Source: Planctomycetota bacterium | GTDB lineage: Bacteria > Planctomycetota > Planctomycetia > Pirellulales > Pirellulaceae | Reading direction: 5' to 3' | Assembly: GCA_016872775.1 (NCBI GenBank) | Contig: VGZA01000020.1 | Span: 1 to 64,000 of the forward strand | DNA length: 64,000 nucleotides | Shown: positions 35,424-48,522 of the stretch, one piece after another | Numbering within the stretch: the first letter of the stretch is position 1 | How the letters are laid out: every line of letters begins with the position of its first letter | Notes under the pieces: generated by a model | Seen by the model: the letters and a program-made list of their open reading frames with translations, nothing else | The model's database searches: none | What the model was told of the DNA's origin: nothing | Position numbers and translations under genes: made by a program

Positions 35424-36602
35424 ATGCAACGAAACTCGCTGGGCGTATCGCGGCCCGCGATGCGGAACGGCGCCCTGGCGATGGTGCTGGGCCTGGCGTT
35501 TGTCGCCGGTTGTGGTGTCGACAAGAGTAAACTCGCCGCGCTGCTCCCGGTGGACGAACTTCCCGCGGATCTGGCTCTGCGGGACATGATCGATGCCACC
35601 ACGGACAGTGCTTACCTGAATCGAAGGCTCAACCTTCGCGATCACGCTGCCTGGCAGATCGTCCATGGAATTCTGGCTTACGAACACGATTTTATTGTTT
35701 CCGATGAACAGGGACGGCTGGTCCCGGCACTCCAGCACCTGCTCGACGGTGGGGAGATGCAAGGTTGGGTATTGCGGCCTGGTGTCGAATTGAGCGAGAG
35801 CGGGCGTCGCGGTATCGTCGCGGTGCTCGACGCCGGAAGCACCATTGGGCAAGGACACGCCGACCAGTGGCTTGGATATCTGGCCGATTGCAATCTGCCG
35901 ATCGATCAGGTGATCAAAGTCGCCGGACGGGATTACACCCTGGCGGATATGTTGCGGCAAGCGGAATGGGACGTGCCAGCGAACGAGACGCGTGAGTACA
36001 GTTGGACATTGATGGCATTAACCACCTACTTTCCGACCAGCCACGAGTGGACCGCGAGCGACGGGAAACGATGGTCCGTGCCTCAATTGCTGGAGACGGA
36101 GGTCGGCCACGATCTGTCGGGCAGTGCCTGCGGAGGCACGCATCGCATGGGCGGAATCGTCATGGCATTGAACCGTCACAAGCAGCAGGGCGGTGCGCTG
36201 GAGGGAGCCTGGGCCGCGGCGGACGAGAAAGTGCGGGAGTGCCGGTTGCTTGCCCGCGAGTACCAGAACGCCGACGGTTCGTTATCGACCCGTTTCTTTT
36301 CCGGTCCGGGGAGCTCACTCGAAATCAAAACCAGCCTGCATGCGACGGGACATACTTTCGAGTTTCTGGTGATGGCGTCTAACGATCAGCAGGTCCGGGA
36401 AGATTGGCTGCGCCGCGCCGCGGTGAATCTGTGCGAGTTACTCGAAGCGACTTCCGATGTCGATCTCGAATGCGGAGCGCTCTATCACGCCATTCGCGGT
36501 TTGACGCTATACCGTGAACGGCTTTTCGGCAGTCGACCATTTCCGCGCGAAAAAATACTGCCTCGTAGCGCGAAACTTGGTAGCACGAAACTTGTTTCGT
36601 GA
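35424..36602 (+). CDS. planctomycete-type lipoprotein of unknown function
   Basis: A 392-residue protein with a lipoprotein signal: n-region RPAMRNG, hydrophobic LAMVLGLAFVAG, and lipobox VAGC at residues 27-30, so Cys30 should be lipidated. The mature part is mostly helical (DHAAWQIVHGILAYEHDF, ATGHTFEFLVMAS, ADGSLSTRFFSGPGSSLEI), loosely like an alpha/alpha-toroid; I recognise no enzyme motif. Alternative starts are ATG 35379 (unusually long n-region) and ATG 35460. The last ~12 residues and the stop codon (36600-36602) are made by copies of a palindromic repeat. Confidence 0.7.
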   Translation: MQRNSLGVSRPAMRNGALAMVLGLAFVAGCGVDKSKLAALLPVDELPADLALRDMIDATTDSAYLNRRLNLRDHAAWQIVHGILAYEHDFIVSDEQGRLVPALQHLLDGGEMQGWVLRPGVELSESGRRGIVAVLDAGSTIGQGHADQWLGYLADCNLPIDQVIKVAGRDYTLADMLRQAEWDVPANETREYSWTLMALTTYFPTSHEWTASDGKRWSVPQLLETEVGHDLSGSACGGTHRMGGIVMALNRHKQQGGALEGAWAAADEKVRECRLLAREYQNADGSLSTRFFSGPGSSLEIKTSLHATGHTFEFLVMASNDQQVREDWLRRAAVNLCELLEATSDVDLECGALYHAIRGLTLYRERLFGSRPFPREKILPRSAKLGSTKLVS

Positions 36603-36693
36603 TTCGCAGCGCCAAACGTGTTTCGCAACTCGAAGCGCGAAACTTATTTCGGCGTGGCTGCTCGATCTCGAAACAAGTTTCGTGCTACGCGCG
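36565..36693. repeat. cluster of palindromic repeats (core CGAAAC-NN-GTTTCG)
   Basis: A perfect 18-bp palindrome (CACGAAAC-TT-GTTTCGTG) at 36584-36601 is flanked by a truncated copy (36565-36579), two degenerate copies at about 36604-36654, and an inverted copy at 36667-36684 plus GCTAC. The lipoprotein stop (36600-36602) and the converging fumarylacetoacetase-family stop (36685-36687) both lie in copies. The cluster probably works as a bidirectional terminator. Related copies are at 48277, 48388 and 48500. Confidence 0.8.
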
Positions 36694-37665
36694 ACCGCCG
36701 ACGACGGGAGTGCGCAGGGTGCCGATCGGCGCGAGTGTCGCTTCGAGCAGGTCGCCTGGTTGGAGATAGGTGCCGGTGGAGTTTCCCACGCCGGCGGGCG
36801 TGCCCGTGGAGATAATATCGCCCGGCTCCAATGTCACAAAACTGGAAATGAACTCAATGACCGCGGCCACGGAAAAAATCTGTTGAGCCGTGGTCGCATC
36901 CTGCATCGTTCGTCCGTTCCGTTGCAACCGCATCGTGACGGACTGGGGATCGGGCAGGTCATCCGCGGACAGAATGGCGGGGCCGCATGGGCAGAATCCG
37001 TCGTGCCATTTGCCGTGCAGCCAGTCAAAAAAACTGTCGCGCTCGCGTTTCTTTCTTCCCGGATTGGGCCGGAACTTTCGATCGGAGATGTCGTTCACGA
37101 TCGTGTAACCGGCGACTGACTTCAGCGCATCCGATTCCCGTACTCCTTTACACTTTTCGCCGATCACCACCGCCAACTCCAGTTCCCAGTCGATTGCGTG
37201 AGGCGAAACGGCGGGGATTGTCAGGGGCGCATCGGGATCGACGAGTGTGGTGGAGGGCGGCTTCATAAACACATAGGGAAAAGTTTCGGCGCGTTCCGTC
37301 GCCGTGCCGCCGCCTTCCTTGATGTGTTCATTGTAGTTTCCGGCAAGCAGCAACAGTTTGTTCGGTCGTGGGATCGGTACAAGAAGCTGCACCGAGCTGG
37401 TAAGGAGCGCCAGCTTTTCGACGATGGTCGCGTCGGCGGCCATGCGTTGGTGCAGGGTACGGGCCAGTTGGGCGAAGCGGCCTTGCGGCGGCAGGAAGTC
37501 CAGCACCGAGACCGGTTCGCCGGTTCGCCGGGATTCCTGCCAGAGATTTTGCTCCGTCGCGTCGGCGAGTTTCCCCAGGGCTCGATCGAAAGGCACCAGC
37601 CGGTCGTCGAAATAGAATCCGACTGCCGCCGTTGCGGCGGGGGTTGCAAAGCGACAGATTCTCAT
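36685..37665 (-). CDS. fumarylacetoacetate hydrolase-family protein
   Basis: A 326-residue FAH-fold enzyme, a family that includes hydratases, hydrolases and decarboxylases of 2-oxo acids such as 2-hydroxyhepta-2,4-diene-1,7-dioate. Metal-binding Glu pairs are in WELELAVVIGEKCKGV, the Asp ligand lies in YTIVNDISDRKF, and the glycine-rich block DIISTGTPAGVGNSTG is near the C-terminus. The N-terminal 100 residues form the extra domain seen in many bacterial members. The specific substrate is unknown. Its final codons come from the palindromic repeat cluster. Confidence 0.9.
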   Translation of the reverse strand: MRICRFATPAATAAVGFYFDDRLVPFDRALGKLADATEQNLWQESRRTGEPVSVLDFLPPQGRFAQLARTLHQRMAADATIVEKLALLTSSVQLLVPIPRPNKLLLLAGNYNEHIKEGGGTATERAETFPYVFMKPPSTTLVDPDAPLTIPAVSPHAIDWELELAVVIGEKCKGVRESDALKSVAGYTIVNDISDRKFRPNPGRKKRERDSFFDWLHGKWHDGFCPCGPAILSADDLPDPQSVTMRLQRNGRTMQDATTAQQIFSVAAVIEFISSFVTLEPGDIISTGTPAGVGNSTGTYLQPGDLLEATLAPIGTLRTPVVGGRA

Positions 37666-48233: not shown

Positions 48234-48276
48234 GAAGACACTCCTGCTGGGACCCGGAACGTTTTGCGAACGCACT

Positions 48277-48299
48277 GCTCGAAACAAGTTTCGAGCTAC
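48277..48299. repeat. palindromic repeat copy, intact
   Basis: Arms GCTCGAAAC and GTTTCGAGC flank AA (48277-48296), followed by TAC. Identical to the copy at 48500. Confidence 0.85.
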
Positions 48300-48387
48300 C
48301 TCGCGCGTCCAACAGCATAACCGGTGGCAATGGCCGATTCCACCTTGCCGCCCCCAAAAAGTACCCCGAATCTTCGCGCCCAAAACC

Positions 48388-48410
48388 GAGCTCGAAACTT
48401 GTTGCGAGAA
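48388..48410. repeat. palindromic repeat copy, degenerate
   Basis: GAGCTCGAAACTTGTTGCGAG carries the same core in the reverse sense with one substitution in the right arm. Confidence 0.6.
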
Positions 48411-48499
48411 GCAGCCCGAACCTTATTCCGAACACAATCCGGCGCCAAACGCCAAGAAAGCGTTTCGTTGAGCAAATCCAGTCCCCAGGTGGGTTTTGT

Positions 48500-48522
48500 G
48501 CTCGAAACAAGTTTCGAGCTAC
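48500..48522. repeat. palindromic repeat copy, intact
   Basis: Same arms and flanking TAC as the copy at 48277, a 23-base identity, in the middle of the 502-base divergent spacer. Confidence 0.85.

Follow-up and report, generated by a model that had tools for sequence, protein, structure and literature searches.

In the 64,000-nucleotide stretch of DNA analysed here (the window), two genes end facing each other across an array of short repeats. The plus-strand gene (35460..36602, with its start taken from a hexamer gene caller) is lipoprotein-like and has no Pfam match; its stop codon, TGA (36600..36602), lies at the edge of a palindrome. The minus-strand gene (36685..37665) encodes a 326-aa protein of the fumarylacetoacetate hydrolase (FAH) family with a complete Pfam domain (PF01557, positions 6-214 of a profile of 214). 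Its stop codon, TAG (usually named amber), at 36685..36687 on the minus strand, is the TAG of a repeat tag. Among the best 80 of 225 matches to the FAH-family protein the identity is at most 64%; most of them come from planctomycete MAGs, the remainder including Verrucomicrobia, and the genome under study is accordingly a probable planctomycete.

Five units make up the array (36564-36692), whose tags point outward. A half unit comes first, then a full unit and two degenerate ones, and the last is again a full unit, oppositely oriented. The outer half unit (36564..36579, plus strand, CGTAGCGCGAAACTTG) consists of a tag and one arm, lies within the lipoprotein reading frame, and is listed with inverted repeat I4 and direct repeat D1. 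Truncated half units of this kind precede the first full palindrome in many arrays of the genome (stretches L011, L031, L055, L065, L068 and others). The first full unit (36580..36601, plus strand) has the tag GTAG at 36580-36583 and palindrome arms at 36584-36591 and 36594-36601. The segment 36584-36601, CACGAAACTTGTTTCGTG, had been described as a perfect 18-bp palindrome; its 8-bp arms are indeed perfect, but the TT at the centre is not self-complementary. The degenerate units (36606..36628 and 36632..36654, both on the plus strand) have one arm mismatch each. In the last full unit (36667..36689, minus strand) GTAG is read from 36688 down to 36685. The four copies of the core are at 36586-36599, 36612-36625, 36638-36651 and 36669-36682. 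The repeat exceeds chance: core matches are far above the shuffled and reversed controls, and with up to two mismatches the window contains 11 matches, compared to a mean of 0.57 in shuffles. Thus the original prediction of repeat copies at the ends of both converging genes holds, as does its claim that both stops, TGA at 36600-36602 and the minus-strand TAG at 36687-36685, are inside repeat units. A second cluster of the same family (48276..48522, cores at 48280, 48393 and 48503) is situated between divergent genes, one encoding a GFO/IDH/MocA-type oxidoreductase and the other a squalene-hopene-cyclase-like protein.

The consensus derived from 145 oriented copies, (C)GTAGCTCGAAACTTGTTTCGAG, consists of a GTAG tag followed by the palindrome. 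Within the tag G is conserved in 97% of these copies, T in 90%, A in 94% and the final G in 85%; a C precedes GTAG in 65%, and the sequence outside the unit is close to random. The complete tag GTAGC (all five positions) is retained in 104 of 157 copies. The 5.85-Mb genome contains 133 exact copies of the 14-nt core and none of the reversed control pattern, and tagged units with at most one mismatch number 176 genome-wide. Outside this genome the family is hardly seen. Five of 59 relatives have one copy of the core each and the other 54 have none, and as the reversed control also matches in four of the 59, the single copies are at chance level. The tagged pattern is present in one of 241 genomes of the bacterial family, the genome under study, and a 22-mer had no match in any record of a multi-species collection of genome contigs, from which this genome itself may have been left out. 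The relatives compared all lie outside the genus. Hence the family is apparently species-specific, new in sequence and known in kind.

Neighbouring copies at most 300 nt apart form 71 pairs. In 38 of these the tags point outward, in two inward, and in 26 both copies have the same orientation; the orientation is unclear in five. Clearly opposite units, the feature that characterises BIMEs, are therefore seen in 40 of 71 pairs, almost always with outward tags. The distance between cores in the outward pairs ranges from 21 to 244 nt. Single units make up 35 of 82 clusters.

We analysed the placement of copies relative to genes in the window and 73 fetched stretches (669 kb), which together include 121 of the 133 exact cores; the stretches were picked for containing copies, so the frequencies below are not genome-wide. 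We predicted 545 genes (86% coding) with a simple hexamer model of our own; its stops are exact for each frame, its starts are rough, and predictions of short genes may be wrong. When one arm mismatch at most is allowed, there are 157 copies, of which 120 are intergenic and eight intragenic. The other 29 extend over the 3' end of a gene, and none extends over a 5' end; random positions overlap 3' and 5' ends equally often (1.9% each). The 82 clusters fall between tandem (40), convergent (22) and divergent (15) genes or inside genes (3), and two at a contig or stretch edge were left unclassed. In 38 of the 40 tandem clusters the upstream stop is nearer than the downstream start (p = 4e-8), the median distances being 13 nt and 151.5 nt, respectively. 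The preference for convergent over divergent gene pairs is not significant (22 of 77 against 15 of 82 pairs, p = 0.14). Enrichment at gene 3' ends, which had been suggested as a test of the array's role, is thus observed in the fetched stretches. The arrays mostly lie just 3' of stop codons, with the tags toward the genes.

The association with stop codons is exact to the base in many cases. Tags were located by a half-site scan that yielded 211 sites compared to 27 in the reversed control, so that about one in eight could be due to chance; a stricter set demanding a downstream palindrome contains 179 sites. A same-sense tag occurs from -60 to +100 nt of 72 of 481 gene 3' ends, and in 63 of these 72 the nearest tag is 0-20 nt from the stop, with a distance of exactly zero in 31. 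No antisense tags were found at 0-17 nt from the stops of the same 481 gene ends. One of the 31 coincident matches (L060:1183-1482) was dropped, since it lies in a simple repeat of GTAACCC and no palindrome is near. This tandem repeat, at about 1480-1545 of stretch L060, coincides with a predicted gene end and is unrelated to the REP family. The remaining 30 of 481 gene ends in the 74 stretches have the stop codon exactly on a tag with a downstream palindrome. In 20 of them the tag belongs to a full palindrome, and in ten to a half unit that precedes a full unit. Translation of 27 genes ends at the outermost tag, and seven others read through it, three of them ending at a later tag. This is above the one-third expected for a random frame (p = 5e-8), and the excess implies that either selection or a site preference acts.

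In the 32 genes whose nearest tag is 3-20 nt past the stop, the frame of the tag is evenly distributed (10, 10 and 12), and the stops are TAG in 17, TGA in ten and TAA in five. The 406 genes not linked to tags have TAG in 79 cases, TGA in 239 and TAA in 88; three of the 481 gene ends were omitted from this comparison of stop contexts, because the context ran off the stretch. CGTAG ends five of the 406 unlinked genes, and CG precedes the stop in 23 of 31 coincident cases (including the one simple-repeat match). Six genes, in stretches L022, L030, L032, L034, L043 and L045, have a TAG stop with the tag's own TAG immediately after it (TAGTAGC or TAGTAAC). Taken together, these counts support a dispersed element that is tied to gene 3' ends and whose copies supply stop codons.

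The proteins that stop on a tag do not appear to be visibly cut short, as judged by sequence comparison. A Pfam scan of 20 of the 29 such proteins other than the FAH-family one identified a domain ending at most ten residues from the C-terminus in eight, and no domain near the end in 12. Seven of the eight domains reach within three positions of the profile end and the one in L068 is six short; the domain in L031, also among the eight, is a repeat domain and hence little informative. Within the window the FAH gene conforms to the tag-stop pattern, and the lipoprotein gene is an exception: it reads through two tags out of frame and then stops at the TGA on the palindrome edge, so that its last 12 residues, RSAKLGSTKLVS, are encoded by REP sequence; alignments with its homologues (n = 19) reach residue 354-371 of 380, and their tails are varied. 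As for the ancestral stop, the homologues of the two genes (19 each) are highly variable in stop codon and tail.

The repeat at 36564-36692 is best explained as a BIME-like array of a GTAG-tagged REP family, that is, of short non-autonomous palindromes spread through the genome. At many gene ends the TAG within the tag is the stop codon itself. Most likely the tag is the element's own and would have taken on the role of stop where the protein naturally ends; selection would have removed copies inserted further inside genes or into promoters. The family was probably moved in the past by a RAYT (Y1 HUH) transposase that is now undetectable in the assembly. We consider this explanation fairly probable as a whole, that is, for the REP family, its RAYT past and the stop-supplying tag jointly.

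All features of GTAG-type REPs are present: a short high-copy palindrome, GTAG at one of its ends, and a mostly extragenic location near 3' ends. A stop-supplying array of this kind is an instance of a phenomenon in print since 2013, when Di Nocera et al. (PMC3733652, in its available text) reported that GTAG REPs often provide a TAG stop codon, lie less than 20 bp from the 3' ends of convergent and upstream ORFs, and form families in Planctomycetes as well. The family described here shares with those GTAG REPs and BIMEs the GTAG at one palindrome end, the high copy number in a single genome, units in opposite orientation, closeness (<20 bp) to 3' ends, and the terminal TAG as a stop. It differs in host and apparently in sequence, the consensus having been found in none of the other genomes searched, and also in that no RAYT was detected in the genome. 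The array is real, well defined and ordinary in kind; what it adds is an apparently species-specific REP family with measured placement. The sequence of the family, base-exact counts of stops on tags, and a RAYT-less planctomycete REP family were not met in the available text of the open-licence literature.

RAYT transposases are thought to move GTAG REPs (PMC3733652, PMC2817692, as far as their available text goes); the RAYT association is a companion feature that does not enter the definition of GTAG REPs in PMC3733652. No RAYT gene was found with either PF01797 or NF047646 in this assembly, a draft of 141 contigs in which absence is provisional. On the other hand, PF01797 matches are present in 45 of the 59 relatives, and a RAYT is the presumed past mobiliser, as in the RAYT/REPtron systems covered by the accessible portions of PMC2817692 and PMC6006769; the lack of a RAYT by two models sets this genome apart from them. 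According to the available text of PMC3733652, REPtrons may be absent through deletion. The missing gene counts against the proposed RAYT history of the family, and the genome offers an example of REPs that are abundant although no RAYT can be detected.

Another possibility is that the REPs inserted 3' of pre-existing (C)GTAG sequences, natural TAG stops being their targets, and that the tag is, or copies, host sequence. We favour the element bringing the stop, and give landing a smaller though substantial chance. The ratio of 27 tag stops to seven read-through tags, far above one in three, fits landing; a stop supplied by the element must assume selection to account for it, or else the site was chosen. 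The natural ends of the proteins are kept, the C-termini of FAH homologues from relatives being at most five residues apart in all 19 cases, with TAG as the stop in eight of the 19 (TAA in nine, TGA in two). For proteins that look uncut, a pre-existing stop is at least as good an account as a supplied one. Moreover, of the 32 genes whose tag follows the stop by 3-20 nt, ten have GTAG at the stop as well, compared to 24 of 406 unlinked genes (p = 4e-5). However, every unit has a tag, including units in array interiors and in divergent regions, distant from stops. The same 32 linked genes have their own stop ahead of the tag, in ten cases TGA and in five TAA, so proximity to a stop needs no TAG target. 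Finally, the stretches contain 186 CGTAG sites between genes, and 108 of them have no REP. Insertion aimed specifically at in-frame CGTAG stop codons as the target site, with some enzyme that is not a recognised RAYT spreading the family, seems improbable. The exact coincidence of stop and tag at 30 gene ends makes it testable whether GTAG REPs bring stops or land on them.

The original prediction suggested that the array may act as a bidirectional terminator; that it serves both convergent genes as an intrinsic terminator of this kind is very unlikely. On either strand the entire array forms a strong fold (z = -6.0 and -6.1), and the copies are placed at 3' ends, as a terminator would be, but a strong fold on both strands is expected of any inverted pair, and the hairpin of a single unit is modest (-5.6 to -8.3 kcal/mol). 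A T-tract follows ten of 314 copy sides (3.2%), compared to 5.0% of 5,000 random intergenic places; tested for a stable hairpin with a T-tract behind it, the REP unit thus does not qualify as a canonical intrinsic terminator. A consensus scan of the window produced two terminator-like sites with 1.6 expected. Terminator-like structures at most 120 nt from the stop occur in one of 72 linked, three of 400 unlinked and one of 472 shuffled genes. The 15 of 82 clusters that lie between divergent genes, that at 48276-48522 among them, also argue against a terminator as the general role. One candidate in favour is a predicted minus-strand site at 36576-36560, with the bases of the outer half unit paired and a T-rich tail, which may terminate the FAH transcript at this single locus. 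On the minus strand the stem and tail together span 36576-36549, within the lipoprotein gene and downstream of the FAH gene. In the fetched stretches, canonical terminators with a hairpin and a T-tract are almost absent behind genes generally (four of 472 gene ends, one of 472 in shuffled sequence).

The outward GTAG...CTAC tags resemble the two ends of one element, yet their reading as terminal inverted repeats of a miniature transposon (MITE) moved by a DDE transposase is the least credible of all, given that the linkers of outward units, compared by eye, look unrelated and show no conserved interior, that the wide range of core spacing gives no fixed size, and that so many clusters are lone units.

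A comparison with known structured RNAs gave no more than two weak microRNA matches, far below their gathering scores, and this reading was rejected. In RNA, each unit could fold into a small hairpin right behind the stop codon. By analogy with the REPs of E. coli, such a hairpin may slow 3'-5' decay or affect the termination of translation; ribosome stalling is reported for E. coli REPs that lie no more than 15 nt from a stop codon (RepRanger paper, PMC12306157, in its available text and citing earlier work). Going by that work, the repeats may act in RNA stability or in the termination of translation. The repeats considered here share with the E. coli REPs of the same text the position of a hairpin repeat directly behind stops, and differ in that, in this genome, the tag is often the stop codon itself.
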